Part shown: positions 252-17,700 of the stretch, in pieces
Numbering within the stretch: the first letter of the stretch is position 1
How the letters are laid out: each line of letters starts with the position of its first letter
Virus record (IMG/VR): IMGVR_UViG_3300010297_000049
Coordinates: 1 to 30,257 of that record
Length of the DNA: 30,257 nt
Reading direction: 5' to 3' (one strand)
From: a virus
The notes under the pieces: model-generated
Told to the model about the DNA's origin: nothing
The model's input: only the letters and a program-made list of their open reading frames with translations
Database searches by the model: none
Program-made: the position numbers and the translations under genes

Positions 252-281
252 TATACTGATCTCAGTTCAACCAACAGACCA
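252..281 (+). promoter_or_regulatory. Repeated leader cassette, copy A (-10 box plus CAGTTCAA leader)
   Basis: TATACT (252-257) is followed by GATCTCAGTTCAACC and then GACCA directly before the ATG at 282. The -10 box starts 30 bases before the ATG, exactly as in copies B and D. ACTGA and TCAGT form a short inverted repeat within it. No good -35 hexamer lies 16-18 bases upstream, although TTGACC abuts the -10 box. There is no Shine-Dalgarno sequence. The promoter role is inferred from the -10 match and the fixed distance. Confidence 0.6.
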
Positions 282-467
282 ATGCAAGTTTACGCCGTTA
301 TCTCTGGTGCCCACTACGAAGGCGAATCCTTCGACTCCCTGCGACTGTTCGATTGCCGCTCCGCTGCTGAGGCATACGAAAAGGAACTGCAGCAGCAGTT
401 CGGTGTAGACTATACCCTTCTGGAAGTGCGGGAGGTTTGCATGGAATCCGCTCTCTGTGCCGCCTGA
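282..467 (+). CDS. Small conserved-type cyanophage protein, 61 aa, unknown function
   Basis: The start at 282 (MQVYAVISGA) is preferred over the in-frame upstream start at 171. The longer version would run through the -10 box and leader at 252-281 and overlap most of the preceding gene. The protein is soluble and acidic to neutral: an opening beta-like strand, then a helix (SAAEAYEKELQQQFG, about residues 28-41), then another strand (YTLLEVREV). There are no membrane segments or catalytic motifs. It resembles the small uncharacterised proteins of cyanophage accessory blocks. The leader suggests expression from its own promoter, and a hairpin at 481-498 follows the gene. Confidence 0.75.
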   Translation: MQVYAVISGAHYEGESFDSLRLFDCRSAAEAYEKELQQQFGVDYTLLEVREVCMESALCAA

Positions 468-480
468 GGCACTGGCACAA

Positions 481-498
481 GGGGGGCATCAACCCCCC
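481..498 (+). terminator. GC hairpin between small genes
   Basis: Six G, a six-base loop (CATCAA) and six C make a strong hairpin 14 bases after the upstream stop codon. No T-tract follows. It could be a weak intrinsic terminator or an mRNA 3'-end stabiliser. It directly precedes leader copy B. Confidence 0.55.
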
Positions 499-510
499 AC
501 CCTGACCCCC

Positions 511-540
511 TATACTGATCTCAGTTCAGACAAACGACCA
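511..540 (+). promoter_or_regulatory. Repeated leader cassette, copy B
   Basis: TATACTGATCTCAGTTCA (511-528) matches copy A base for base, is preceded by the same TGACCCC, and ends in GACCA before the ATG at 541. The distance from -10 box to ATG is again 30 bases. No -35 hexamer or Shine-Dalgarno sequence is visible. Confidence 0.6.
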
Positions 541-876
541 ATGCGTAAGATCGAATCCCTGATGAACGTCGCCATCAGCGACAACGCTACGTGGGCGATG
601 GATAACACCGCTGTCACTCTGAACGCTGACGGTGAGTCTGAGGTCTTCCTGCACGGTAACCTCATCGCTCGCATCGGTGAAAATTTTGTTCAACTGTTTG
701 ACGGCGGTTACCGTTCTTCTACCACGAAGTCCCGCCTGAACGCTATCTGCGACGCTCATGCCGTGACGGGTGAGGGAGTGTTTCAGAAGGCGGGGGAGTG
801 GTTCTGCCGCCAGTATGACACCGCTGCTAAGACCTGGCAGACCGTACCTTTTGAGAGCGGTATGACCCTGGTGTGA
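541..876 (+). CDS. Conserved-type cyanophage protein, 111 aa, unknown function
   Basis: The start at 541 (MRKIESLMNVAISDN) follows leader copy B; an in-frame ATG at 457 would lie inside the previous gene and span the hairpin and leader. The protein has the pattern of a family I recognise from many cyanophages but cannot name: an N-terminal segment with NATWAMDNTAVT, a beta-rich centre (VFLHGNLIARIGENFVQLFDGG, two pieces, about residues 42-63), then TTKSRLNAI and a C-terminal half with VFQKAGEWF and a final FESGMTL. It is soluble, with no membrane segment. The central G-N-L-I-A and F-D-G-G pieces are probably structural turns. A strong hairpin follows at 895-918. Confidence 0.8.
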   Translation: MRKIESLMNVAISDNATWAMDNTAVTLNADGESEVFLHGNLIARIGENFVQLFDGGYRSSTTKSRLNAICDAHAVTGEGVFQKAGEWFCRQYDTAAKTWQTVPFESGMTLV

Positions 877-894
877 CACCTGACTAACTGGTCC

Positions 895-918
895 GGAGGG
901 GTTGACCAGGACCCCTCC
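895..918 (+). terminator. GC hairpin downstream of the 111-aa gene
   Basis: GGAGGGGT (895-902) and ACCCCTCC (911-918) pair perfectly around an eight-base loop, TGACCAGG. No T-tract follows. The loop overlaps a TTGACC that could serve as the -35 element of the next promoter, so terminator and promoter are interleaved. Confidence 0.6.
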
Positions 919-931
919 CACCCCCTATAGT
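902..931 (+). promoter_or_regulatory. Leader cassette copy C with recognisable -35 and -10
   Basis: TTGACC (902-907), an 18-base spacer and TATAGT (926-931) resemble a sigma70-type promoter. CAGTTCAAAC, the conserved leader core, follows at 937-946, and the ATG is at 954. This is the only cassette copy in which both hexamers are visible at a normal distance. Confidence 0.6.
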
Positions 932-953
932 AAACACAGTTCAAACGAAACAC

Positions 954-1190
954 ATGGCACGCGCAATCGGTTCCGCCCGCTCCACCGACACCAACGCTAA
1001 GGGGGGTGCCCTCCGTTCTTCCTCTGGTGGTGGTATGACCTTCACCCCTGCTAAGGGTCTGGGTGCTTCCATGGTCGACGACCTTGACGGTGTGGTTTCC
1101 CGTGCTAAAGCACAATACGCCGCCGACCGCCGTGCTGCTGCCCGTGAGCGCCTGATGGACCGCATCGACGCCCTGCTCGCAGACGACTGA
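954..1190 (+). CDS. Small basic protein, 78 aa, unknown function
   Basis: The gene follows leader copy C. Residues 1-35 are rich in Ala, Gly, Ser and Arg and look disordered (ARAIGSARSTDTNAKGG, then SSSGGGM). Residues 40-78 look helical and charged (DDLDGVVSRAKAQYAADR, then ERLMDRIDALL). The helical end could mediate self-association or binding to another protein. There is no membrane span, cysteine or catalytic motif. Codon use is strongly GC-rich: the 60 bases from 1141 contain 38 G or C. I do not recognise the family. Confidence 0.7.
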   Translation: MARAIGSARSTDTNAKGGALRSSSGGGMTFTPAKGLGASMVDDLDGVVSRAKAQYAADRRAAARERLMDRIDALLADD

Positions 1191-1195
1191 TTCTG

Positions 1196-1228
1196 TGGTA
1201 TGATTCTCTCAGTTCAAACCCACTGACC
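1196..1228 (+). promoter_or_regulatory. Leader cassette copy D (extended -10)
   Basis: TGGTATGAT (1196-1204) has the TGn extension of an extended -10 promoter. CTCAGTTCAAAC (1208-1219) and GACC follow directly before the ATG at 1229. The -10 to ATG distance is 30 bases, as in copies A and B. The box overlaps the spacer just after the previous stop codon. Confidence 0.6.
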
Positions 1229-1426
1229 ATGGCACTGTACAACATCGCAACCGATCTCAAGACCCGCCAGACCGTATGGGTCAGCACTAACGTAGTGAAG
1301 GGTCGCCCGCAACTCAATTCACACCGCGACGACGTCTTCGGTCGTTCCCTTGCTAAGGCAGGTTCGGACGGATACACCGCTGTGGAACTTGCAGGACTGC
1401 ACACCGACTACGTGGGGAGGGGTTGA
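1229..1426 (+). CDS. Small soluble protein, 65 aa, unknown function
   Basis: The protein starts MALYNIATDLKTRQTVWVST, a two-strand-like opening, followed by a basic stretch with HRDDVFGRSLAKAG and a C-terminal YTAVELAGLHTDYVG. It ends in a TGA at 1424-1426, next to the hairpin-rich spacer. There are no membrane segments or recognised motifs. It is the last of the GC-rich small genes and the last with the cassette leader in its close form. The function is unknown. Confidence 0.7.
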   Translation: MALYNIATDLKTRQTVWVSTNVVKGRPQLNSHRDDVFGRSLAKAGSDGYTAVELAGLHTDYVGRG

Positions 1427-1447
1427 CACCCTGCTGGGTTCGTGGTA

Positions 1448-1495
1448 GGCAGTGCCCCCGTGGGGGTGCCGCCGCCCCGTGGGCGCGTGTGGCGG
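1448..1495 (+). other. Tandem GC hairpins in non-coding spacer
   Basis: The spacer holds a C-run facing a G-run (GGCA...CCCCC then GGGGGTGCC, 1448-1470). Next comes CGCCC-CGT-GGGCG (1473-1485), nested within CCGCC (1472-1476) and GGCGG (1491-1495), and TTTATAA follows. These could form stacked hairpins acting as a terminator for the upstream GC-rich block, or a structured RNA. No open reading frame of interest is seen here. Confidence 0.5.
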
Positions 1496-1540
1496 TTTAT
1501 AAGCCCCCCCCCGTTTTAAAAACGCATAGGATCCCCTAAG

Positions 1541-1573
1541 CTATAAAGTCTTGCTTTCGCGGGGTCTTTATAG
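1541..1573 (+). terminator. AT-based hairpin, possible terminator
   Basis: CTATAAAG (1541-1548) and CTTTATAG (1566-1573) pair perfectly, and an inner CTTGC/GCGGG stem closes over TTTC. A run of five T follows at 1583-1587, about nine bases past the stem. The outer stem pairs equally on the other strand. It probably separates the GC-rich gene block from the following genes. Confidence 0.5.
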
Positions 1574-1602
1574 AACTCACAGTTTTTCTATATAAAACAA
1601 AA

Positions 1603-1800
1603 ATGGAAACACAAATACCTCAGATGCAAAAAAATCCGGACAAAAATTTTACGACCGTAGAGGTTGATCCTATAACTGGGGAGTATTATATTACGATACC
1701 TGAGTGGATCTTAAATGATTTCGGGTGGTATGAGGGCACGGAAGTCAATATGGAAGTTGAGGGTGATTGTATTGTAATCACTGAAATCAAGAGAGATTGA
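1603..1800 (+). CDS. AbrB/SpoVT-type DNA-binding-like protein, 65 aa
   Basis: From about residue 19 the protein reads as a swapped-hairpin AbrB-like domain: VEVDPITGEYYITIPEW, then ILNDFGWYEGTEVNMEVEG and a final IVITEI strand. The pattern of a strand, an I-P turn, a short helix with L and G-W, and two closing strands is that of AbrB, MazE and SpoVT domains, which bind DNA as dimers. At 65 aa it is a single domain without an effector part. It may act as a phage transcription regulator or antitoxin-like factor; no partner toxin is adjacent. The leader is A-rich (TATAAAACAAAA) and lacks a Shine-Dalgarno sequence. This gene marks the switch to AT-rich codon use. Confidence 0.65.
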   Translation: METQIPQMQKNPDKNFTTVEVDPITGEYYITIPEWILNDFGWYEGTEVNMEVEGDCIVITEIKRD

Positions 1801-1825
1801 CTTCTTATAGATAATGCGTTATGAT
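1797..1825 (+). promoter_or_regulatory. Sigma70-type promoter for the glycosyltransferase gene
   Basis: TTGACT (1797-1802), a 17-base spacer and TATGAT (1820-1825) closely match the bacterial consensus. The -35 box overlaps the stop codon of the AbrB-like gene. ATTCAAATTCAAAC downstream (1839-1852) is a distant version of the leader core seen in copies A-D. The ATG of the next gene is at 1864. Confidence 0.65.
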
Positions 1826-1863
1826 TCCCTATGAATCGATTCAAATTCAAACTTGATTAAGTT

Positions 1864-2619
1864 ATGACAAAAGGATTTACAGTAAAAGCAAAAACACCTG
1901 TTGCGAAGAAAGAACCAGAGTGGGATTTAGATCAAGCAAGGGAGATGGTAAGAGGAAAGACAGTAGTCTTTTGTCTCCCTGGGCGGGGAGTGTCCTACAC
2001 ATTTCTGAAAAACTTCGTACAGTTGTGTTTTGATTTGGTACAGGCAGGAGCAAGTATCCAAATCTCACAAGATTATTCTTCGATGGTAAACTTTGCACGT
2101 TGTAAGTGTCTGGGTGCAAATGTTCTGAGAGGACCCAATCAGAAACCATGGGATGGTAAGTTAAAGTATGATTGGCAGTTATGGATTGATAGTGATATTG
2201 TGTTTAACACAGAGAAGTTCTATCAGTTGGTTCTGATGGATAAGGATATTGCTGCTGGTTGGTACATGACGGAAGATGGTCATACAACTTCTGTTGCACA
2301 CTGGTTAGAAGAGGATGATTTCCGCAACAATGGTGGAGTGATGAATCATGAAACTGGTGAAAGTATCTCAAAGCGTCGCAAACCATTTACTGTTGATTAC
2401 ACTGGTTTTGGTTGGTTATTGATCAAGAATGGTGTCTTTGAACATGAAGGTATGCCATATCCTTGGTTTGCACCGAAGATGCAAGTCTTTGAATCTGGTG
2501 AGGTTCAGGATATGTGTGGAGAAGATGTAAGTTTCTGTCTGGATGCAAAGGACGCAGGATTTGAGATCTGGTGTGATCCTCGCATCCGCGTTGGTCACGA
2601 AAAAACTCGCGTGATCTGA
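1864..2619 (+). CDS. GT-A-type glycosyltransferase, 251 aa
   Basis: The layout fits a nucleotide-sugar glycosyltransferase of the GT-A fold. A first strand and glycine loop (VVFCLPGRG, 34-42) is followed by a helix, then ISQDYSSMVNFAR (67-79). The metal-binding DxD motif is DSD at 109-111, within LWIDSDIVF. The acceptor-side motif GEDVSFCLDAKDAGF lies at 219-233, and the metal or base histidine of VGHEK is at 245. It probably transfers a sugar to a phage virion protein, phage DNA or host surface glycan; the substrate cannot be read from the sequence. It resembles Anp1-like and family 2-like phage transferases. The gene has its own sigma70-type promoter and runs into two tiny genes. No membrane segment is present. 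Confidence 0.75.
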   Translation: MTKGFTVKAKTPVAKKEPEWDLDQAREMVRGKTVVFCLPGRGVSYTFLKNFVQLCFDLVQAGASIQISQDYSSMVNFARCKCLGANVLRGPNQKPWDGKLKYDWQLWIDSDIVFNTEKFYQLVLMDKDIAAGWYMTEDGHTTSVAHWLEEDDFRNNGGVMNHETGESISKRRKPFTVDYTGFGWLLIKNGVFEHEGMPYPWFAPKMQVFESGEVQDMCGEDVSFCLDAKDAGFEIWCDPRIRVGHEKTRVI

Positions 2620-2623
2620 GTCA

Positions 2624-2782
2624 ATGACAGAGAAGTATACGGTTCTCCATAAAGGAAAAGTTCTCTTCAAGAACTTGACAGAAGACGAATACTTCGATAT
2701 TATGGAGGACCTTTCGATTGAGTTTTATCAGAAAGGTTCTCCAAACCCCTCGGAGATTGAAACAAAAGTTACTCGATTTTAA
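2624..2782 (+). CDS. Small conserved-type cyanophage protein, 52 aa
   Basis: The gene begins four bases after the glycosyltransferase stop (ATG 2624) and ends at TAA 2780-2782. The protein opens MTEKYTVLHKGKVLFKNLT, continues with an acidic helix EDEYFDIMEDLSIEFYQ and ends SEIETKVTRF. It looks like a small strand-helix protein. I believe similar small proteins occur beside structural genes in other T4-like cyanophages, but I cannot give a function. Tight spacing on both sides supports its being a real gene of the same operon. Confidence 0.7.
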   Translation: MTEKYTVLHKGKVLFKNLTEDEYFDIMEDLSIEFYQKGSPNPSEIETKVTRF

Positions 2783-2788
2783 AGTATT

Positions 2789-2938
2789 ATGGCAAAAGCA
2801 AAAGTTGGTCTGAATAAGAGTTCTTATATTCCAGGTCCTCCTAAGAAGTCTCGTCAAGGCATGGGTGGGGGAACCAAATATGCCGCTACGTCTCGCAATG
2901 GGGCGCGGAAAAAGTATCGCGGTCAAGGTAAAGGTTGA
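2789..2938 (+). CDS. Very basic small protein, 49 aa
   Basis: The ATG at 2789 lies seven bases after the preceding stop, and the gene ends with TGA 2936-2938, just before a terminator. The protein has many Lys and Arg residues plus Gly and Ser (MAKAKVGLNKSSYIPGPPKK, later RKKYRGQGKG). It lacks hydrophobic core residues, so it is likely disordered and nucleic-acid- or capsid-binding. The PGPPKKSRQG piece may be an extended docking segment. The function is unknown. It is the last gene before a T-tailed terminator. Confidence 0.7.
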   Translation: MAKAKVGLNKSSYIPGPPKKSRQGMGGGTKYAATSRNGARKKYRGQGKG

Positions 2939-2944
2939 TTTTAT

Positions 2945-2977
2945 GAGGGGGGTTCCACATGGTTCCTCCTCTTTTTT
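2945..2977 (+). terminator. Rho-independent terminator
   Basis: GAGGGGGG pairs with CCTCCTC (one G-T pair) around TTCCACATGGTT, in which CC and GG add an inner pairing. TTTTTT follows at 2972-2977. It sits seven bases after the stop of the basic 49-aa gene and immediately before a late-type promoter, so it closes the glycosyltransferase operon. Confidence 0.85.
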
Positions 2978-2982
2978 ATGAA

Positions 2983-2990
2983 AATAAATA
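2983..2990 (+). promoter_or_regulatory. Degenerate T4-type late promoter
   Basis: AATAAATA matches TATAAATA at seven of eight positions and lies between the terminator and the 95-aa gene at 3049. T4 and its relatives use this single box with the phage sigma factor gp55. The next base is C, as in the copies at 18059 and 27401. The leader it would give is about 50 bases and contains the hairpin at 3021-3042. Confidence 0.6.
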
Positions 2991-3020
2991 CGATTAAGGG
3001 ATAGCAACCCCTCTAAAAGT

Positions 3021-3042
3021 TCTGATTTCACAGTAAATCAGG
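3021..3042 (+). promoter_or_regulatory. Hairpin overlapping the Shine-Dalgarno sequence
   Basis: CTGATTT (3022-3028) pairs with AAATCAG (3035-3041) across a six-base loop, CACAGT; T3021-G3042 can add a wobble pair. The Shine-Dalgarno CAGGAG (3039-3044 region) is partly inside the 3' arm, so folding could hide it from the ribosome. The ATG is at 3049. Confidence 0.5.
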
Positions 3043-3048
3043 AGCAAA

Positions 3049-3336
3049 ATGGGCAATTCACCTGTCGATAGAGATGCAAACTACATGAGAGAGATGTGGG
3101 GAACCACAAAACTCATCTCAGATTATGGTTCAATGCGTCCAAACAGTGATTTTTTGGATAATTTAGCAAATCATCAGCATCAAAAGATGCTTCGTGAGAT
3201 TTCTAATGATGATCTAACACCAAAAAAGCATGATTTTGACACTCAGAACGAACTTCATGAAAAAATCCGCAATGATGAGGATTATGATGATTGGGATTAT
3301 GGTACAGAACCGTTTTATGGGAAGATTTCTGGGTAG
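3049..3336 (+). CDS. Unknown acidic protein upstream of gp25, 95 aa
   Basis: The start is set by AGGAG five bases before the ATG at 3049. The protein begins MGNSPVDRDANYMREMWG and contains a polar helical middle with LDNLANHQHQKML. It finishes with a very acidic, aromatic tail (NDEDYDDWDYGTEPFYG). There is no membrane segment or cysteine. The acidic tail may bind a basic partner during baseplate assembly. Its place between a late-type promoter and gp25 suggests late expression. I do not recognise a family. Its end overlaps no other gene, and the gp25 promoter follows within five bases. Confidence 0.75.
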   Translation: MGNSPVDRDANYMREMWGTTKLISDYGSMRPNSDFLDNLANHQHQKMLREISNDDLTPKKHDFDTQNELHEKIRNDEDYDDWDYGTEPFYGKISG

Positions 3337-3340
3337 GTGC

Positions 3341-3348
3341 TATAAATA
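3341..3348 (+). promoter_or_regulatory. T4-type late promoter for gp25
   Basis: TATAAATA is a perfect match to the T4 late box, preceded by C. It lies five bases after the stop of the 95-aa gene and 24 bases before the gp25 ATG at 3372. It probably drives gp25, gp6 and the giant gp7-like gene as one message. Confidence 0.85.
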
Positions 3349-3371
3349 ATTGGACGAAAAGTACCATTTCA

Positions 3372-3773
3372 ATGGCATCCAAGAGGATTTCCAGAGCATT
3401 TAAAGACATCAGTTTGTCCTTTGATCCCCATCCGGTGACAAAGGACCTTCCTGTATTGACAAATGAGCGTTCAATTCGTAGATCAGTTCGCAATTTAGTC
3501 GAAACGATCCCGACAGAACGCTTTTTTAACTCTACTCTTGGTACAAATATTCGTAGAAGTCTATTTGAGTTCGTTGATTATAGTACTGCCGTTATAATTG
3601 AAGACCAAATTCGTAATACTGTTAGTTTTTATGAACCAAGAGTCACAAATCTCAAGGTTCAAGTCGATCCAAGACCTGATGACAACAGTTTCGATGTGAA
3701 TGTCATCTTTGATATCATTGGTTTAGATATTGCAACGCAACAATTTTCATTCATATTAGAGGCAACACGATAA
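3372..3773 (+). CDS. 25: Baseplate wedge subunit gp25, 133 aa
   Basis: T4 gp25 is a small lysozyme-like-fold wedge protein that joins the baseplate to the tail sheath start. Here 133 aa compares with 132 in T4. The recognisable pattern is RSVRNLVETIPTERFFN (residues 37-53), a LFEF segment, and then the family hallmark VSFYEPRVTNLKVQVDPRP with the E-P-R triad and a following DD. The start at 3372 is chosen because an in-frame ATG at 3291 would run through the late promoter at 3341. No Shine-Dalgarno sequence is visible. gp6 follows after three bases. Confidence 0.92.
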   Translation: MASKRISRAFKDISLSFDPHPVTKDLPVLTNERSIRRSVRNLVETIPTERFFNSTLGTNIRRSLFEFVDYSTAVIIEDQIRNTVSFYEPRVTNLKVQVDPRPDDNSFDVNVIFDIIGLDIATQQFSFILEATR

Positions 3774-3776
3774 ACA

Positions 3777-5702
3777 ATGCCTTTTACACAGTTTACCAAC
3801 CTAGATTTCGATCAAATAAAGACAGAGATTAAGTCATATCTCCGTGCAAACTCCAATTTCACGGATTTTGACTTCGAAGGATCTAATTTCTCTGTCCTTA
3901 TCGATACTCTCGCGTATAATACCTATATCAACGCATTCAATGCGAACCTAGTTGTTAATGAATCCTTCCTGGATGCAGCGACAGTTAGAGAAAATGTGGT
4001 TTCTCTTGCCCGTAACATTGGTTACGTACCACGCTCTAAAAGCGCCGCTAAGGCACACATAACATTCAGTGTTCCTACCACTACCGCAAGTAGTTTCATC
4101 ACCCTTAAAGCGGGTCTGGTGTGTGTAGGATCGTTCGATAACACATCATATCGCTTCTCTATTCCAGAAGATGTAAGTGCAACTGTTATAAATGGTGTTG
4201 CACAGTTTGGATCAGCATCTTCTCCGATTCAAGTCTATCAGGGAACACTGTTACAGAAGCAGTTTTTAGTCAATAGTTCTGTTGATCAGCGTTTTATTCT
4301 TGATAATCCAAACATTGATGCCTCAACAATCGTTACTTATGTAAGAGGTATTAATGATACTGGATTGGGAAGAGAATATCATCGTGTTGATAATATCCTC
4401 AATCTCAATAAGAACTCTGAGATCTATCTGATTCAAGAAGTTCAAGACGAAAGATACGAACTTCTGTTTGGTGATGGATACTTTGGTAAAGAGTTGGAGA
4501 ATAACTCTGTTGTTACAGTTAAGTATGTTGTAACTGATGGTGAAGCAGGTAATGGACCAGCAGCATTTGATTTCCAAGGAAACTTTGTTGATGAGTCAAA
4601 CATCAGAGTGATTCCTTCTGCGTCAGTGCCCGTTACAACCGTTCAGAGGGCGATGAATGGCGGTGAGATAGAGAATGTATCATCAATCAAATACTTCGCT
4701 CCTAGGTTGTATTCCGCGCAGTACAGAGCGGTTACAGCAAGGGACTATGAGGCGATTATTCAATCAATCTATCCCAACACAGAATCGGTTGCTGTTGTGG
4801 GTGGTGAGGAGTTAACTCCACCACAATACGGCACTGTTCAGATCAGTATCAAACCAAAGAACGGCACATACGTTTCTGATTTTGATAAGCAGAATATCCT
4901 ATCAAAGATCAAACAGTATTCGATTGCTGGTATTAATCAGAAGATCGTTGATCTCAAAGTTCTCTATGTTGAGATTGATTCTTCTGTTTATTATAATACA
5001 TCACAAGTTTCGAATGTTGATGATTTGAGAACCAATATTATCAACTCTCTTACTACATATTCGAGAGATGTTGATATTAATAAGTTTGGTGGAAGATTCA
5101 AATACAGTAAGATCTTACAGTTGATTGATAGAGTTGATAGTGCAGTAACTTCTAACATCACAAAAGTGAAGATTAGAAGAGATATGAAGGTTCTGAAGAA
5201 TCAGTTTGCACAATACGAACTCTGTTTTGGCAATAGATTCCATATTAATCCTGCCGGATATAACATTAAGAGTACTGGATTTACTGTAAGTGGTTCAAAT
5301 GATATTGTATACTTCACTGATGTTCCAAACAAGGATGCAAATGGCAACTTAGATGGAAGTGGAATGGGTGTTCTTTCTGCAATCAAGAGAACGGAACAAG
5401 ATAAACTTCAAGTTGTTGTTAAGTCTGTTGGAACAGTAGATTATGCTAAGGGTGAGATCTTGGTTAATACAATCAATATCACATCAACTGTTGCTGACAA
5501 TGATCTTATTGAGGTTCAAGCATTCCCAGATTCTAATGATGTTGTCGGATTGAAGGACCTTTATCTTAGTTTCAATGTTCCGAATAGTACAATAAATATG
5601 GTAAAGGATGTTATCGCATCTGGTGAAGATATTTCTGGAGTTACCTTCACAAGAGATTACTATACTTCAAGTTATTCCAACGGAGCATTAGAGAGGAAAT
5701 AA
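3777..5702 (+). CDS. 6: Baseplate wedge subunit gp6, 641 aa
   Basis: gp6 forms the continuous inner ring of the T4 baseplate and links the wedges. T4 gp6 is 660 aa and this protein is 641. The N-terminal signature is clear at residues 40-93: SVLIDTLAYNTYINAFNAN, then VNESFLDAATVRENVVSLAR and NIGYVPRSKSAAKAH. This block is shared by gp6 and baseplate J-like proteins. Residues about 220-250 (ERYELLFGDGYFGKEL) match the next conserved core. The gene starts with TAAACAATGCC, overlapping nothing, and has no Shine-Dalgarno sequence. It ends three bases before the gp7-like gene and supplies that gene's GAGG ribosome site. Confidence 0.93.
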   Translation: MPFTQFTNLDFDQIKTEIKSYLRANSNFTDFDFEGSNFSVLIDTLAYNTYINAFNANLVVNESFLDAATVRENVVSLARNIGYVPRSKSAAKAHITFSVPTTTASSFITLKAGLVCVGSFDNTSYRFSIPEDVSATVINGVAQFGSASSPIQVYQGTLLQKQFLVNSSVDQRFILDNPNIDASTIVTYVRGINDTGLGREYHRVDNILNLNKNSEIYLIQEVQDERYELLFGDGYFGKELENNSVVTVKYVVTDGEAGNGPAAFDFQGNFVDESNIRVIPSASVPVTTVQRAMNGGEIENVSSIKYFAPRLYSAQYRAVTARDYEAIIQSIYPNTESVAVVGGEELTPPQYGTVQISIKPKNGTYVSDFDKQNILSKIKQYSIAGINQKIVDLKVLYVEIDSSVYYNTSQVSNVDDLRTNIINSLTTYSRDVDINKFGGRFKYSKILQLIDRVDSAVTSNITKVKIRRDMKVLKNQFAQYELCFGNRFHINPAGYNIKSTGFTVSGSNDIVYFTDVPNKDANGNLDGSGMGVLSAIKRTEQDKLQVVVKSVGTVDYAKGEILVNTINITSTVADNDLIEVQAFPDSNDVVGLKDLYLSFNVPNSTINMVKDVIASGEDISGVTFTRDYYTSSYSNGALERK

Positions 5703-5705
5703 AAT

Positions 5706-8700
5706 ATGTCGCATTTTGAGAAGAGAGTGCAACTCAATAAAATTATTGAGAGCCAACTTCCAGAGTTTTTAGTTGCAGATTTTCCAAAGGCAGTTGAATT
5801 TTTCAAACAATATTATATTTCCCAGGAATATCAGGGATCAGATTCTGACCTGATAAACAATCTTGATCGCTACATTAAGTTAGATAATCTCGTACCAGAA
5901 GTTGTCGTTGGTAAAACAACCCTTTCTTCCAGCATTACGTCTACTGATTCCACAATAACCGTATCTTCCACTAAGGGTTTTCCAGAAGAGTATGGTTTAT
6001 TGAAAATCGGTGATGAGATTATCACTTATACCGCCAGAACAGAAACAACTTTCACTGGTTGTATTCGTGGTTTTAGTGGAATCACTGGGTACGATGTTGG
6101 CATCACAAGTTCTTTCTCTAATGTTAACAAGCAGAATGTAGTATTTTCTACCTCTGTCGCAGCAGCACATACCCAAAGTTCAGAAGTAACTAACCTCAGT
6201 GTTCTTTTTCTGCAAGAGTTTTATAGAAAACTTAAAAGAACTTTCACGCCAGGATTAGAAGATAGTGATTTTGTTTCCGATTTGAATGTAGGAAACTTTA
6301 TCAAACATGCAAGAAACTTCTACCAGTCGAAAGGTATTGAAGAATCTGTAAAGATTATCTTCAAGGTTCTGTATGGTGTAGAAGCACAGGTATTGGATCT
6401 TGAAAAGAGATTGATCAAACCATCTTCCGCTGATTATATCAGAAGAGAAGTTGTTGTAGCAGAAAATATTTCGGGTGATCCTTTCAAGTTGGAAGGACAA
6501 ACTATTTTTAGATCAACTGATCTTAACACAAATGCATCAGTATCTGATGTAGAAATCTTCACAAGAGACAGCAAGACATATTATAAACTTGGATTGTTCG
6601 TAGGATATAATGATAGAGATCTTGTTGAAGGTATTTTTGAAGTACCAGGAAAATCAAAAGCATTAGAAGCAGTTTCTGTTGGATCATCTATCATTTCAGT
6701 TGATTCGACCATTGGATTTGGTCAAACTGGAACTCTGGTATCAGGAACAAATACCATTGAATATACCTCAAAGAGCATCAACCAGTTCTTTGGTTGCACT
6801 GGCATTGATGTAAGCATTGGTGTAAGTGATGATGTCAGAGCAGATGAAACTATCTTTGGATATGAAAATGGAGATATCACCAAGAAAGTTGATCTTCGTA
6901 TCACAGGTGTTCTTTCGGATTTTGTTCCACTAGGAGATTTGTCTCTCATCGAAGAGGGTGAAGAGATCTCTATTCGCCACATTGGTGAGGCAATTCAAAA
7001 TCCAGATGAGGATAAAACCTTCAAAGAGATCTTTGCCAACTCTTGGATTTACAATACAAGCACAAGATATAAAGTTGGATCTATTGTTGGATCTAACTTC
7101 ACTCTCCTCAGCAATATTGAAAAATCAAGTCTGAGAGTAGGAGATACTGTTGATGTATTGTTTAGAAACAGTGAGAATGTTGCTTCTGCAAATGCGATAG
7201 TATCAAGCATCAATACATCAACAAGACAAGTTGTATTGAGTAATCTCAGTGGATTTACACCTATTCCATCAATTGATTATGATATTCGCAGAAAACTGAA
7301 AAAGTCGGTATCATCCAATGTACAACTTTTACTCGGAAATAATAACTACATCTCAGACACACTAAATGTGTATTCAAATGATGCAGGAGACACTGGATAT
7401 ATTGCATCTCAATCTTTACCATCATATACAATCGTAGATGAAATAGTAGAGTCTTCACTCGCAAATGGGTTTGATACAAACCTCGGTGATTATAGTTCTT
7501 TACTGAAAAACTATGGAACTATCAAGTTCTCCACAAATGTTAGATTTATCAATGGTGATAGAGTCGTTTACACCTCAAACAATCCACTTTCTGGATTAGT
7601 TTCTGGTGAAACATATTTCGTTACCATTGTAGCACCAAATGAAATAAGATTATATACTTCGAAAGCACTTCTTTCAGGATCAAACTCTGTTAGATTTGGT
7701 CCGAATTTGACTGCATCTACTCATAGATTTACATTGAAGCGTCATGAGAATAGAGTTTTAGCACCAAATACTATTCTTAGAAAGTTCCCACTGAGTCAGT
7801 CATTATCAAAATCTAAGAATGAAGATAGAGGTGTTGAAAATATCGGCATCTTGATTGATGGTGTTGAGATTTCAAGTCCAAACTCAACAAATAAAGTTTA
7901 CTACGGTCCTATTAGTGAGTTTGAGGTTCTCAATGGTGGAAGAGATTATGATGTAATAAATCCACCCCAGATCACTATTTCAACAGGTGCTGGTGTTACT
8001 GCACTTGTTGAACCTATTATCTCAGGTAACGTAAAGGAAGTCTTTGTTGATCCACAAGATTTTGACGTAAATGATGTTTTTTCTCTGTCATTGACTGGCG
8101 GAAATGGAACAGGATGCTATCTACAACCAGTCATTGGTGAGAGATTCCGCGAGATTGAGTTTGATAGTCGCGCACTAACTCTTGGTGGTGGCGTTGATAT
8201 TGTAGATGAAACCATCACATTCTTATCTGATCATAATCTTGCAGATGGTCAGCATGTATTCTATAACCAAAATGGAAATAGTCCAATTTCTATTGGAACA
8301 TTTGATGATGTAACAAACAGTATTACAGGAACTCTGGTTAGTGGCGATGAATATGTTGTAAAGTTTGTCAATACCAGAACGATTAAACTTTATAATAGTG
8401 ACTCTGATGCACTTGCTGGTATTAATACCATTGGTTTCTCCACCGCCACATCTGCTAGTGGTATCCATAAGTTCAGAACTCTTTCTAAGAAAACTCTCAG
8501 AAGCGTAAAGGTTTTATCATCTGGATCGGGTTATCAATATAGAAAACTAAGAGTTCCATCTTCGGGAATCTCTACCGAATATAACACGTTCACTTTTAAG
8601 GATCATGGATTCAATCATGGCGATATTGTAACTTATTCAACTACTGGTGATGTAGTTGTTGGATTATCGACTTCAAATCGCTATTCGATTTCTAAGATAG

Positions 8701-11700
8701 ATTCTGATACTTTCAGAGTAATAAATGTTGGAGTTGGAGCAACAGTAACAACAGATCTGGTTAGATCTAAGTATGTTGAGTTGGGATCAACTGGTTCTGG
8801 TTATCAGATTTTCCAATATCCAGAAATACAGGTTGTTGCTAACGTATCGTATGGATCAACTTTTAGTGGAGAGTTTACTTTCACTCCTATTGTTACTGGT
8901 GAGATTGTAGGTGCATATCTGTACGAAACTGGAACAGGATATGGATCGAATATTTTAAATCTTCACAAAAAACCAATCATTACCTTAAAGAATGGAAAGA
9001 ATGCTCAGTTAAACCCAATTATTTCTAATGGAAGAATAGTTGACGTACAAGTATTGAGCAAGGGTTCTGAGTATTTCTCAATACCAGAGATTGTAGCGGA
9101 CAATGGTGGTACTGGTGCTATTCTCAGACCAATTATTTCTGATGGTAAGATTGATGATGTTGTTGTAATCAATGGTGGCATAGGTTATAGTGCATCATCA
9201 ACAACACTCTATGCAAAACCAAGAGGTTCTGGAAGCATATTTGATATAAGAGTTAGAGAACTTACAGTTAATGATGCTAACAGATTTGGAGAATATGCCA
9301 AGACAAGGACGCCAAAGATATTCTCAAATCTGTACTCAAACGATACCAATGATTCGATTGTTTATGGAATCTATGGATATTCGGAAGATTTAGCAACAAC
9401 ATATAGTGATCTTGGAGGTCTTCACTCACCAATCATCGGATGGGCATATGATGGAAATCCAATCTACGGACCATACGGATATTCACAACCAGATAATATA
9501 CAATCTGGTGTCAAGATAATCAAACCTGGTTATACCTTAGATTATACCAAGATAACCGATAGACCATCAACATCAACTTTTGCAGAGGGTTTCTTCATTG
9601 AAGATTACCACTTCTCGAATAGTGGAGATCTTGATGATCACAATGGAAGATTCTGCAAAACCCCAGAATTTCCAAATGGTGTTTATGCATACTTTGCTGG
9701 TGTTACTACTAGCACAACATCAAATAAACTCGAACCATCCTATCCATATTTTGTAGGAAATACTTTTAGATCAGATTTCATTCCTGAAAACAAAACTCTT
9801 GATCAAACATTTGATTTTAACAATTCAAATATTGTTAGAAATACCTATCCATATAAAGTTAATGATCCAAATGCAGACTATGATTTCTTTGTTGAACCAT
9901 ATGAAGTAGTTCAACAAACAAGTGTAATAGAATCTGTCACCAGAGGTGAAGTTGATGATGTTCTGGTAGTCGATGGTGGAACTGGATACAGAATTGGAGA
10001 AAGACTCAACTTTGATGAATCTGAGAGTGGTGGAACTGGATTTAGAGCAGAAATATCAGAACTTGTTGGAAAGAATGTACTTTCTCTTCAAACTAGTCTT
10101 GACAGATATGAGAACTGTGTATTCATATGGGATGACAACTCCCAAGTATCTGCTTATTACAGATCTGGATTTGATCTGAATAATAATGATTCAGTTCTTG
10201 TTGGAGGTTTATCAACATCCATCCTAAATCTTTCGGGATCTAAGAGAATAGGATTTACCACCGAAGCAGTAAGTCTTGCTGCTACAATGACGAGTTATAG
10301 TTCAACTCCTGGTGGAGTAATTCAAGATATCTTCGTATCTCCTATTCCAAATGTATCGATAGGTGGTAGTATTTCAATCAACTCATCTCTTGGAGATGAG
10401 ACTGTAAGGGTTCTCAACAACTACCAGAATGGTATTCTTCGAGTTAAGAGATACGCTAGTTCCGGAGTTGCTCACACATACAGCAGTGATTTAAATGTAC
10501 TGAACGACAGAGTTAAACTGCCAGTAAAAACAAGTCAGTTTGAATCTAAGAGAGATGATTTAGTTTACTTCAACGCAAAAGATTCTGTTGGGGTTGGAAC
10601 AACTCCTGGCGGCGCAATATCAAAAACTTTCAGTGTTGGAAATGTTACCAATACTATTTCTATTCCAAACAGAAGCATCTATCTTCCAAACCACCCATTC
10701 AAGACTGGTCAAAGGGTTACATTCAGCATGTCCGACGTTTCGGGTGTAAATGCTTTGATTGTTGGTAATGATGAAACAAATCTGAATACCTTCTTCCTGC
10801 CAGATTCATTTGCATTAACTTCCGAAGTTTATGTCATTAATAAAGGAAGAAATCACATCGGATTGACAACCCAAGTTGGTTTAACCACAAATAGTGAAGG
10901 ATTGTTCTTCTACAGTGATGGATCTGATAACTCAGAATACCTGTTCAAATCAAACCACTCACAGGTTACTGGAAATGTTGATAGAATAACAACATTAGTA
11001 AGCACTGCTGCTTCACATGGTTTGCAAAATGGTGATACTATTAAACTCAACATTGCACCAAATACTGTTGTTGGTCTTGGTACAACCGCAGCATTAACGC
11101 TTTCATTAGAACCAAATGATAAGAAGCTTCTAGTTAATGCTATTGGAATCAACTCATCTCAGATTAATACCGTTACAAACACTATTACAGTAACCGATCA
11201 CGGATATAAGACTGGCGACAAGATTCACTACACAAGTATTGAGGTTGCATCTGGATTGACAACTGGTTCATACTACGTTGTAAGAGATAGCAGCAGCACC
11301 TTCAGATTGGCAGAGACTGCTTATGAATCAAAACCTGCATCTGAAAAAACAGTCAATATTGTTGGAACTGGCGCAACAATCCACACGTTTGCACTGATCA
11401 ATCCTCAGATCAATGTTGTTAGAAATTCCGATTTGGTATTTAATCTTGGCGATTCTTCTCTAACTGGATATGACTTGAAGATATTCTATGATAGAGAGTT
11501 TAAAAATGAATTTGTAAGTGCTTCCGATGATAGACAGTTCAATGTTGTTGGTGTTGGTAGCGTTGGTCTAGGAACTGCCTCCCTCACTTTAAAATACTCC
11601 AAAAATATACCATCAAAACTCTACTATTCATTAGAAAAATCAGGATATATTAGCACATCTGACGTAGATGTTTCCAACAATTCTCTCATCAACTATGTTG

Positions 11701-14700
11701 ATAGTGAGTACAATGGAACCTATCAGGTATTTGGAATCTCAACAAATACATTTAATATTTCACCATACAGTCTTCCTTCTGTTCTGACATACACAGAGAA
11801 TCAGACTGATGTATTAGAGTACTCAACAAAATCCTCAACAGCAATAAATGGATCAATCGGAAAGGTAAAAATCATTTCCAAAGGTTTCAACTTCAAAAAT
11901 CTTCCAAAGTTTGTTGATGTTGAGACTAGGGATGGTGAAAATGCTAACGTTTCTGCGATTTCCGATTCGGTTGGAAATATCAAGAGCGTAAGGATTAAGG
12001 ATATTGGATATGAGTATCCATCAGATAAGACTCTGAGACCAGAAGCATTTGTTTCTCCTGTTGTTAGAATCGACAATCTCGATACTATCGATCAGATTGA
12101 CATTCAATTTGGTGGTGCAAAATACCTCAGTGCTCCCGATCTGATACTTCTTAATGATACAACCAAGGAAGTAGTTGATACTACAACACTTCTGGCAGAT
12201 ACTCCAAATGGATCAATCGCTGATGTTATTCAGTTAGCACCAATATACGGATTAGATTCTGAACCACATAAGATTATTGCTATTAATAACTCTAATGGTG
12301 TTGGTATCAGTTCGATGGTAACTAGCAACTCTGGTGTTGCTACATGCACATTGAAGACGCCAATTTTAGGATTTAGCGTTCCACAGTTTACCATTGGCGA
12401 TAGAATATTTGTTGAGGGTATTGAACTCATAGATGGATCTAATGGATCTGGATACAACTCAGAAAACTATGACTATCAGTTCTTCACCGTTCAGTCCTAT
12501 TTGAATACAAATCCAGCAAAGGTTACCTTTGCTCTCGTTGATAATGATGGAGTTGGGTTGACAACAAATCCAGGAATCGCAAAAACTTTCCAATCTGGAT
12601 ATGCAACCATCATCAACGAATCCAACTATCCAATCATCGATGTTATTAAGAAGAGAGGCGTATTTGCCCTTAATGAGCAACTCTTTGTTGATATTGGATC
12701 TGGATTCTCTGAGCAGGATATTTTTGTTACCTCTGTAAGAGATGATTACATTAAGATAAAAGGTAGATATTCCTTACAGAAGGGAGATAGAATCAAGGGA
12801 AGAGTTAGTGGTGTTATAGCAGAAGTTTCTAGCATCAGTGGCAACAGAGCCAAGTTTACTATTGATTATGCTTCGAAGAAAGATATTGGATGGAGAAATG
12901 ACACTGGTAAGATTAGTGAAGATTATCAGGTAACTCCAAATAACGATTATTATCAAAATCTTTCTTACTCTATCAAGAGTCCAATCTCTTGGAATGAGTT
13001 TGTGAATCCAGTAAATGGTTTGCTTCACCCTGCTGGTATGAAGAACTTTGCGGATGTTGGTATAACTTCCGCCGCCAATGGATCTGTTGGTCTTGGTGGA
13101 TCAACAACAAGTCTTGTTATTCTTGATGTTGTTGGTGAAAGAAGAGTTGATATTATCAACAACTTCGATAATACCGTTGATTATGATGTTAGAGGAAATC
13201 AATCTAAGTTCTTACAGATTCAAAATAGAAAACTGACTGATTACACGGAATGTAGAACTAACAGAGTTCTGATTCATGATGATATCAGCGGAAGATTTTC
13301 TAGCAGAGGATTTGAAGATCCATTCGTTGAGATTGAAGAGATTGATATTATTGATACTCACGTAAGATACCTGATTCAGATTGTTGATCCAGATACTTTT
13401 GATTCTCAACTGAGCGAGTTGGTTTTACAAACAACAACTCTCGATTCTATCTTGTTTGAGAAGTCAACAACATATACAAAAGAGAAACTTGGCGATTTCA
13501 GCGCCAATGTTGATTCGACTGGAAGAAAAACATTAATATTCACTCCTACTGACAGATTTGAAAGAGATCATGATATTAAGATCTTGAAGAAAACTTTCCT
13601 AAACTCTGTTTCTGGGTTAGGAACAGAAACCTTTGGTTGTGTTAACTTGACAGGTTCAAACGTTATTGGTGTTACCAGCATTGGAACCGCCAATAATATT
13701 GCCACTGTTTTGGAAGTTTCTGATAGCAACTTCAATGGATTGTTTGCAAATATTGAAATATTCAACACATTCACTAGGGATCTAAACTATGTTGAAGCAG
13801 TTTTAGATTTTGATGGAACAAATACTTATTTGAGTGAGTACTATTTTGATACTACTACTCAATCATATAGCAACTCTTCCATTGGTATTGTTACATCAAT
13901 ATACGATTCAACTGCTGGTATTGTATCATTTAGAGTTCAAAATGATACTATTAATAATCTGGACATTCGTGCAAACATTGTAGGGTTTGCAGCAACAACT
14001 GCTGGCATTGGAACTTATAGGTTCTTGGTTAGTGCTCAACCATCTGGTTCTGAAAGAAGTGCAAGACTTGAATCGACTGTTGGATTTGGAACAACTGTTA
14101 TCCGAGTTGGAACCTTTGATATTAACACTATTACATCAACATCATCTTTGGTAAGAGTTTCTTCTGGAAGTAGTTCCGCTGTTCACCAGGTTTCTGCACT
14201 GTATGATGGTGAAGATGTTACAGTAACACCTGGTCCTTTTGCACCAACAAATAATGTTTCTGGATTGGGAACATTTGGTGGAGAAGTTAATGGAAATGAG
14301 TTCTACTTAAACTTCTATCCAGATTCAGGTTTTGATGTTGAACTTCAATCTTTCAATGAAGTGTTCTACACACTCAGCGATTTTGATAATGAACCTCTAC
14401 AACTTTCATATGGTCCAAGTAACCAAAGACTGTTCCTCTCATCATATGATAGTATCAACGGAACAAGAGCAAATAAAGTCAACTTCCCATTAACTTACCA
14501 GGGAATACCAATCTATAAGAAGACTTTCTCACCATCAGATTCTAGTGTAATAGATCTTGAAACTGGTGTATTTACGATCAGAAATCACTTCCTCAATACT
14601 GGCGAAGAGTTAATCTATACTCCAAAAGCATCATTCATTGGTGTTGGACAGAGTGCTATGGGAATCGGAGCAACAGCAAACTATCTTGGTGTTGTAACCG

Positions 14701-17700
14701 ACAGATTGCCAGAGAGAGTATATCCAATCGTTATCACACCAGATACATTTAGATTGTCAACTCAAAAGCAATATGCAACTTCTGGCATTGCGGTAACATT
14801 TACTGATGTTGGACTTGGAAACGCACATGAACTTGAACTGACTAAGAAACTTTCCAAGTCAGTAATCTCTCTTGATGGTATTGTTCAACAACCAATCACC
14901 TTTACTCCCATTTCCCACAGTCTTCAATACAATAGTGGATCCATTTCTGCTGGTATTGCAACTTTCAACCTGAGTGGAATTTCATCTGTTCAACCAAGAG
15001 ATATTCTTAAAATTGATGATGAATATATGAAGGTTGTTGAAGTTGGTGTTAGTACCAATGTTGGCGGTGCTTTACTTGGTCCTATCAATGGTATTATTCA
15101 ATCTGGTACTGCCGCAACATTCCCAACAGTTTCTGTTGTAAGAGCATCTTTCGGTAGCACAGCAATATCTCACACTGATGGTGCAAATGTTCAACTTTAT
15201 AGAGGATCATTTAATATTGTAGGAAATGAGATATTCTTCGCAGATCCACCTAAGGGTAATACAAGAGCAAGAAGAGATGAAAGTAATCTTCCTTATGTAA
15301 GAGCACAATATTCGGGCAGAACCTTCCTGAGATCAAACTATGACACCAATATGATTTTTGATGATATCTCTGATCAGTTTACTGGTATTGGTAAAACATA
15401 CACGATGACTGTTCAGGGTATTAATACCACCGGTGTTGATATTGGAAATGGAATCCTGTTCCTGAACGGTGTTTTCCAAACACCAACAACAATCAATAAC
15501 TCTGGAAATAACTATGAGTTTGAAAATGATTCTGTTGCTGGTATTTCTAGTGTAGTGTTTACTGGCATTACATCAACAGATGGATCATACATCAGATCTG
15601 AGTTTGACATCAACCAGAATCAACTCCCAAGAGGTGGTTTGATCGTTTCCCTTGGATCCACACCTGGTCTTGGTTACGCACCCCTTGTAGGGGCAAAGGT
15701 TAGGGCAGTTCTTGATGGATCTGGATCGATTGTAGATGTTGTTAGTGTTGGAACTACTATTACTGGTGCAAGTTTAGGAGTTAGCACAGCATCTTACAAT
15801 AATACTTCTGGTATTATTGAAATCGAAACTACTACCGCACACGGTTTGAATGGTGGAGATAGAGTAAAACTGGTTGGTTTAGCATTCACTTGCCCAACAA
15901 ATCCTGGCGTTACTTCATACTTCCCAGAAGATCAACCAAACTTCGTTGATCGTGCATATGACATTGTTAACATTCTTTCTGATACGAGTCTAACAGTTAA
16001 CGTTGGACCTAGCACAATCGTACACAACTATATTGGATTTGGTACTGTTTATGAGTACTTTGCCTTAAATAATGGTTCTGGATACAGAGGTCCAGTATCA
16101 ATCGGAATCACAGATCCAAATCATTCTGGCACAGAAGCAACTATTTCTGCTACTGTTGGTGCAGGTGGAACACTCGGATTTACAGTTACTAGTGGTGGAT
16201 CTGGATATGTAGAACCATACATCGAAATTCCAGAACCAATTTATGAAAATATGGAAGTTGTTGGTGTATCAAGACTTGGAATCGGTGCAACAACAGAAAC
16301 TGGTAGCAATCTTCTCCTCAATGTTAAGATTGGATCTGCAAGTACAAACGTTGGCATAGGATCTACACTCTTCTTGGTAGAATCCTTCCAGATTACAAGA
16401 CCTGGATATTCATTCCAAGTTGGCGATGTTATGAAGGTTGTTGGTCTTGTTACAGCAAAAGACTTTGCTGAACCAATCTCAGACTTCCAACTTGAAGTTG
16501 TTGAAACATTTAACGACTTGTTCTCATCATGGTCATTTGGAGAAATGGATTACATCGATAGTCCAAGATTCCTTCAAAACGGAAGCAGAACCAGATTCCC
16601 ACTGTATTACAATGGTCAACTGTTAAGTTTTGAGGTTGATCCAAATAATCCACTTTCTGGTGCTATTGATCTTGACGCGGTTCTTGTCATATTCGTTAAC
16701 GGTGTTATTCAGCAACCTGGATATGCATATCAGTTTGCTGGTGGAACCTCAGTGGTATTCACAGAACCACCAAAAGAATCTGACAAGGTTGATATATTCT
16801 TCTATCTTGGTCAAGAAGGTGTTGATGTTACTCTGATTGACGTAAATGAAACAATCAAGATCGGTGATGATGTTTTTGTTAAGAAACATCCTCTGTATCC
16901 ATTAACTGCTGATCAACTGCGCGATAGAACTATCGTAGATCTTCTTGGTTCCGATACTGTTGAAACAGACATTTATGTTGGTACTGGAATCAATGATACC
17001 ACATTCAAACCAATTGATTGGATCAAGCAGAAGAAAGATAAGTATGTTAAGGGTGACATCATTTACAAGACAAGAGATTCTCTTGAACCCGCTATCTTCC
17101 CAACTGCCAAAATCATTGGCGACTTAAATGTTGGATCAACTGATATCTTTGTAGATAATGCACAGTTCTTTAACTACGAAGAAGATAACTATGGAATAAC
17201 AATCAATACTGTTGATGGATTGATTGTTGAGGGATCAGATCCAGTATCTGCCGCATTTACAGCAACTGTTTCCGCTGGTGGTACAATCAGTGCTATCACA
17301 ATCACAAACGCTGGTATTGGTTATTCTGTCGCTACTGTTCCAGTTAAGTTCTCCGCACCTTCTTCTATCGGAGTTGGAATCGGTTCAACCGCTTCTGGAA
17401 CGGCAACGATCTCTGGCGGTTCTGTAACTTCGGTAACTATTGACAATCCTGGTTTTGGGTACACAAGCACAAATCCACCACAAGTTATTACCGTAGTTCC
17501 AAAGGCAGTTACTGAGTTGGTTGCAAATATCCAGAATGTTCAGGGATTCTCTGGCATTATTACAGGAATCACAACTACAACTGGAACTGGTGGTCATCCA
17601 CTTGCGTTGAAGATTAACTTCCGCGCAAATGCATCAGATGCCAATGACCTTCAAGTTGGATATCCAATCCTTGTTTATGATACAACCGTTGGAACTGGTC

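Follow-up and report, generated by a model that had tools for sequence, protein, structure and literature searches.

Promoter-early stem-loops (PeSLs; Arbiol 2010, Comeau 2014) are small units of T4-like phages that combine a promoter with a stem-loop; they are placed between small genes in hypervariable regions, and genes are swapped by recombination between them (PMC4503421). For the cyanophage S-PM2, Puxty et al. 2015 (PMC4503421) considered PeSLs too sparse to explain its ORFan genes and left the mechanism of gene shuffling unclear; cyanophage genomes are rich in small genes whose function is unknown and whose turnover is fast. Intergenic promoter repeats before many genes are also found in the haloviruses HGTV-1 (PMC3950731) and HF2 (PMC8707807): those of HGTV-1 carry an inverted repeat and have been likened to PeSLs, and those of HF2 have been tested in reporters. 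Cyanobacterial promoters commonly have no -35 consensus and prefer A at +1 (PMC3219970).

Here we analyse a linear virus fragment of 30,257 nt (IMG/VR record IMGVR_UViG_3300010297_000049; the whole fragment is called the window below). Its right part encodes T4-like cyanophage proteins, including the baseplate wedge proteins gp25 (at 3372) and gp6 (at 3777), and the G+C content is 53–61% at bases 1–1500 and ~40% in the remainder. Downstream of gp6, the structural region has two very long ORFs (5706–18053, 4115 aa, and 19647–27014, 2455 aa). PADLOC gave no match to defence proteins, and P0006 gave no solved structures. We read the repeated units at the G+C-rich end as PeSL-like portable promoter cassettes of cyanomyophages that double as recombination joints, and put the probability of this reading at a little under 0.8.

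Like PeSLs, the cassettes stand between small genes in hypervariable regions, and genes are swapped by recombination between them. Unlike PeSLs, they have no conserved -35; the predicted start is occupied by a fixed CAGTTCA block, and a further conserved element, a DNA dyad, overlaps the upstream stop codon. Their stem-loop has no U-run after it, and arrays of up to 15 units contain roughly one unit for each gene. With the -10-only, sigma-70-type promoters of cyanobacteria the cassettes share the -10, the A start and the lack of a -35 consensus (PMC3219970), whereas their first transcribed bases (as counted from the predicted start) are conserved too, the unit is repeated and recombining, and its 18-mer almost never occurs in prokaryote genomes. 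The halovirus repeats resemble the cassettes in their position before many genes, but are archaeal TATA-type promoters of unrelated sequence.

Cassette copies in the window

The window genes at 282, 541, 954 and 1229 are each preceded by TATRNT-N5-CAGTTCA (copies A to D), and the original prediction of a repeated promoter-leader unit proved accurate in nearly all its particulars. The -10 boxes are at 252 (TATACT), 511 (TATACT), 926 (TATAGT) and 1199 (TATGAT); CAGTTCA follows each of them, always exactly 5 bases on (263, 522, 937 and 1210); and the four ATGs are 30, 30, 28 and 30 bases from the first base of the -10. The 18-mer TATACTGATCTCAGTTCA is common to copies A and B, GACC(A) stands directly before the ATG in copies A, B and D, no Shine-Dalgarno sequence was seen before any of the four genes, and copy C has a -35 (TTGACC-N18-TATAGT). 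TATANT-N2..9-CAGTTCA is found three times in the window against 0.09 expected; copy D fits the looser TATRNT. A 'distant version' that had been claimed before the gene at 1864 is instead an ordinary sigma-70-like promoter (TTGACT-N17-TATGAT, 1797–1825), where TTCAAATTCAAAC differs in sequence and spacing. The stop codon of gene 1603 sits inside the -35 of that promoter. We rejected a -35 box as part of the cassette: no hexamer is conserved across copies, and the TTGACC of copy C and the promoter before 1864 are separate cases.

Alignment of non-redundant copies gave the full order of the cassette: a dyad (GTGnCA-N10-TGnCAC), a G+C-rich stem-loop, TGACCCC, the -10, N5, CAGTTCA, ~11 bases and the ATG. 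The stop codon of the upstream gene is usually within the dyad or TGACCCC.

All features of the four copies are on the + strand. Cassette A has the conserved dyad as GTGACA..CTGTACAC (199–221, within the last codons of ORF 79–246), a short stem-loop GGCG..CGCC (226–241; a fold, of the class with matched arms) and the core TTGACCCCT (243–269), with the -10 at 252–257, CAGTTCA at 263–269 and a +1 predicted, from the -10 distance, at A 264. Small gene A (282–467) encodes 61 aa (PHROG 17343, unknown function). The dyad of cassette B, GTGCCG..CTGGCAC (457–478), encloses the stop codon of gene A (465–467); it is followed by the stem-loop GGGGGG-CATCAA-CCCCCC (481–498, with no U-run behind it; the fold of 455–510 has -25.4 kcal/mol) and the core TGACCCCC (503–528), with the -10 at 511–516, CAGTTCA at 522–528 and the predicted +1 at A 523. 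Small gene B (541–876, 111 aa) belongs to the Kyanoviridae Gp96 family (PF23790, PHROG 554). Cassette C has a stem-loop GGAGGGGTT..GACCCCTCC (895–918), with the -35-like TTGACC at 902, and a core at 926–943 (-10 TATAGT, CAGTTCA 937–943); small gene C (954–1190, 78 aa) has no family match, and eight members are found among the genes behind cassettes. The core of cassette D (1199–1216) has TGG before the -10 TATGAT and CAGTTCA at 1210–1216, with no convincing stem-loop or dyad upstream. Neither the family libraries nor the named phages gave a match to small gene D (1229–1426, 65 aa), which has 33 members behind cassettes among the fetched loci.

In 98 of 136 non-redundant copies, the right arm of the dyad lies at -39 to -37 from the -10. 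The two arms show no covariation (42 paired against 45 expected, of 100), so the dyad looks like a DNA-level element; an RNA hairpin was rejected on this ground, and the duplexes are no better than permuted ones. The stem-loop is variable in sequence, and its arms match their own partners far better than permuted partners (z=-10.8). A standard terminator was rejected for the stem-loop: no U-run follows the stem, and no terminator was called at the cassettes.

Frequency and genomic place of the cassettes

The exact 18-mer is present in at least 119 IMG/VR viral stretches and in cultured S-PM2. Among prokaryotes, it was found in only 3 of 11.3 million contigs (a collection of 257 billion bases), all of them from metagenome-assembled genomes assigned to non-cyanobacteria, and a host origin of the motif was rejected. 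These three contigs (L128, L129 and L130; the genomes are named Rhodobacteraceae, Eubacteriales and Deltaproteobacteria) are probably stray or mis-binned cyanophage DNA.

In ~1 Mb of fetched loci there are 463 copies of TANNNT-N5-CAGTTCA against 2 in the reversed control, a count in which the share of the 18-mer is inflated (most loci were retrieved through it) and in which contigs related to one another do not count as independent. An ORF of at least 25 aa follows 456 of the 463 copies, against 42% of random same-strand island positions; the motif is indeed commoner before genes than elsewhere. The following ORF begins with ATG for 453 copies, and the ORFs behind the motif start 9–27 nt further on, have a median length of 63 aa and fall into 69 families. 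Among copies other than the search 18-mer, the spacer between the -10 and CAGTTCA is 5 in 237, with at most nine copies at any other spacer (control: two at spacer 5).

Cassettes were found beside homologues of the window genes 1603, 1864, gp25 or gp6 in ~65 contigs, and the order of the arrays is cassettes, then homologues of 1603 and 1864, then gp25 and gp6. The densest array has 15 cassettes in 5.8 kb, and the cassette islands have 55–60% G+C against 30–45% in their flanks. At the right edge of the island most contigs encode a MazE/AbrB-like small protein, a candidate cassette regulator. In the window this conserved right neighbour is at 1603–1800 on the + strand (65 aa, PHROG 661); it is weakly MazE/AbrB-like, with 19.8 bits, under the Pfam cut-off of 24.7.

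S-PM2 has seven strict matches, all at 22.07–24.60 kb, on one strand and shortly before gp25, and no strict match outside this interval (196 kb searched); an eighth cassette near 23.24 kb has a weaker -10. Cassettes are therefore dense (eight at 22.0–24.6 kb) in a phage for which the literature called PeSLs sparse. Transcripts of the island gene S-PM2d241 are reported from infected cells, where the gene is differentially expressed (Rihtman et al. 2024, PMC10976474), so the island is transcribed. The array does not explain the S-PM2 deletion of 5,799–15,339 (Puxty et al. 2015, PMC4503421), as the deleted region is a different stretch. A search of nine named cyanophage genomes gave no match in S-SZBM1, S-RIM44 and S-B43 and only one or two in several others, so the array is not general. 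S-PM2 on Synechococcus WH7803 offers a cultured system for testing the cassette mechanism.

Gene exchange at the cassettes

Neighbouring genes behind cassettes make up 188 pairs, of which 93 are distinct. Breaks in nucleotide homology have 42% of their ends in cassettes against 18% at random, although conserved stretches may attract the ends of HSPs, which makes this test weaker than the paired-edge test and the hybrid junction. For the paired-edge test, swap or indel events were counted as replacements or indels with flanks at least 88% identical: both edges are in cassettes in 12 of 42 events, against 0.19 expected and a maximum of 2 in 200 shifts. The hybrid junction is a cassette of contig L121 that exactly combines two copies of contig L033 lying 531 bp apart; its left part matches copy 1 (45/45) and its right part copy 2 (45/45), which places the crossover within the shared CTCAGTTCAAA block. 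There are about three further hybrid-like cases, with small indels in the leader. The window itself has 96.0% identity to contig L113 at 73–299 and 98.7% at 501–6594, with a different gene A between; on this alignment, the difference is a gene swap between cassettes A and B, gene A being the swapped allele. The cassette is thus also a joint where genes are swapped.

In the mechanism that we propose, a cassette would end the upstream gene, whose stop codon usually falls inside it, and host RNA polymerase would begin the transcript with the A of CAGTTCA; a leader of ~18 nt, mostly without Shine-Dalgarno, would be followed by a gene of ~60 codons. Arrays made up of 1–15 of these units, each with one gene and almost all on the same strand, fill the G+C-rich hypervariable island beside gp25–gp6. 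Near-identical stretches are common to the cassettes, so homologous recombination from cassette to cassette is possible; through recombination enzymes whose part we infer, it would add, remove or swap the intervening gene, and each gene would stay behind a promoter through the exchange. For PeSLs, exchange between nearby units reportedly gave mini-circles in the 2010 work of Arbiol.

A feature-by-feature comparison with PeSLs shows, in S-PM2 and the ~65 contigs, a composite unit that recurs between the genes of a hypervariable region in a T4-like phage; a stem-loop is beside the promoter in window copies A, B and C and not convincingly in D; and recombination between units shuffles genes (the both-edge events, the L121 hybrid and the swap between the window and L113). 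We class the cassette as a PeSL-like variant, not a proven PeSL, as it has no -35 and its terminator role and early timing are putative. The idea of a portable early-expression unit keeps its 'portable' and, by anatomy, its promoter. Dense promoter cassettes acting as recombination joints offer a mechanism for the shuffling of small genes in cyanophages. The cassette is also a search handle for such genes and helps to place gene starts in unannotated arrays.

Readings of the core and the dyad

Cyanobacterial promoters often lack a -35 and favour A at +1, and the core is therefore most simply read as a site where host RNA polymerase starts on the A of CAGTTCA. CAGTTCA keeps a constant 5-base spacing from the -10, whereas its distance from the ATG is variable; it is therefore part of the promoter (as the probable start site) and is not tied to the start codon. 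This geometry argues for a transcriptional rather than a ribosomal role. The alternate sigma factor that had been suggested is not needed for promoters that commonly have no -35 consensus and start with A (PMC3219970). What a simple host promoter does not explain is the conservation of the upstream dyad, which could bind a regulator.

It is possible, if doubtful, that the array is a set of regulated promoters: a dimeric protein, phage-coded or from the host, would bind the dyad and activate or repress the array as one regulon, and an alternative sigma could read the -10 and CAGTTCA. The dyad is conserved before unrelated genes at its usual place, behaves as DNA rather than RNA, and has a MazE/AbrB-like protein encoded beside most arrays; but some copies, e.g. 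copy D of the window, have no dyad, the dyad centre near -54 from the predicted start is unusual for an activator, and the MazE/AbrB match of the small protein, a putative binder, is under the Pfam cut-off. Such regulation is compatible with portable promoter cassettes, the explanation that we prefer. A single dedicated regulator for both the dyad and CAGTTCA, possibly the MazE/AbrB-like protein, seems to us unlikely; if it existed, a gene captured between two cassettes would join one phage takeover regulon at once, and the pair would be a plug-in expression slot for new genes.

We consider it improbable that CAGTTCA is an RNA-level leader signal that guides ribosomes or stabilises mRNA without a Shine-Dalgarno sequence. 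CAGTTCA would be in the leader, and a Shine-Dalgarno-like word is found in only 35 of 447 leaders; but CAGTTCA holds a constant distance to the -10 (5) and a variable one to the ATG (9–19), the absence of Shine-Dalgarno sequences is common in cyanobacteria anyway, and an Rfam search of the cassette gave no match. The proposal of an RNA-level signal for leaderless-like initiation is not supported, given the same constant distance to the -10 and a CAGTTCA that floats 9–19 nt from the ATG, and the predicted leaders of ~18 nt speak against leaderless mRNA.

A Pho box, i.e. a putative PhoB site, is very improbable. Table 2 of PMC10976474 lists CCTATACT GAT CTCAGTTC, which covers a part of the cassette motif, at -30 of S-PM2d250, but in LN828717 this tag is used for two genes, 12555–12722 and 155233–155376 (L133 and L134), and the motif is ~30 nt before the former, not before the 'ATPase' at 155233. 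Furthermore, TATACTGATCTCAGTTCA does not contain PyTTAAPyPyT/A, the consensus given in PMC10976474, whose entry for the site names no binding test, and dozens of small genes, unrelated to one another, have the motif in front of them. A locus-tag collision appears to be the source of the label, and the cassettes put this one published 'Pho box' in question. The published row couples the motif before one S-PM2d250 with the product name of the other (PMC10976474).

An artefact (an assembly chimera of G+C-rich sequence with phage, or chance matches), which might be suspected from the abrupt change in G+C near 1500, at a contig end, is already refuted by S-PM2 and L113: cultured S-PM2 shows the same step and order, as do dozens of contigs, and L113 is 98.7% identical across the step.

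A second class of cassettes has TACAAT as its -10 (107 copies, with a spacer that is mostly ACTCT or TCTCT), and shares arrays with the TATACT class (IMG/VR loci, e.g. L098, L108 and L109).
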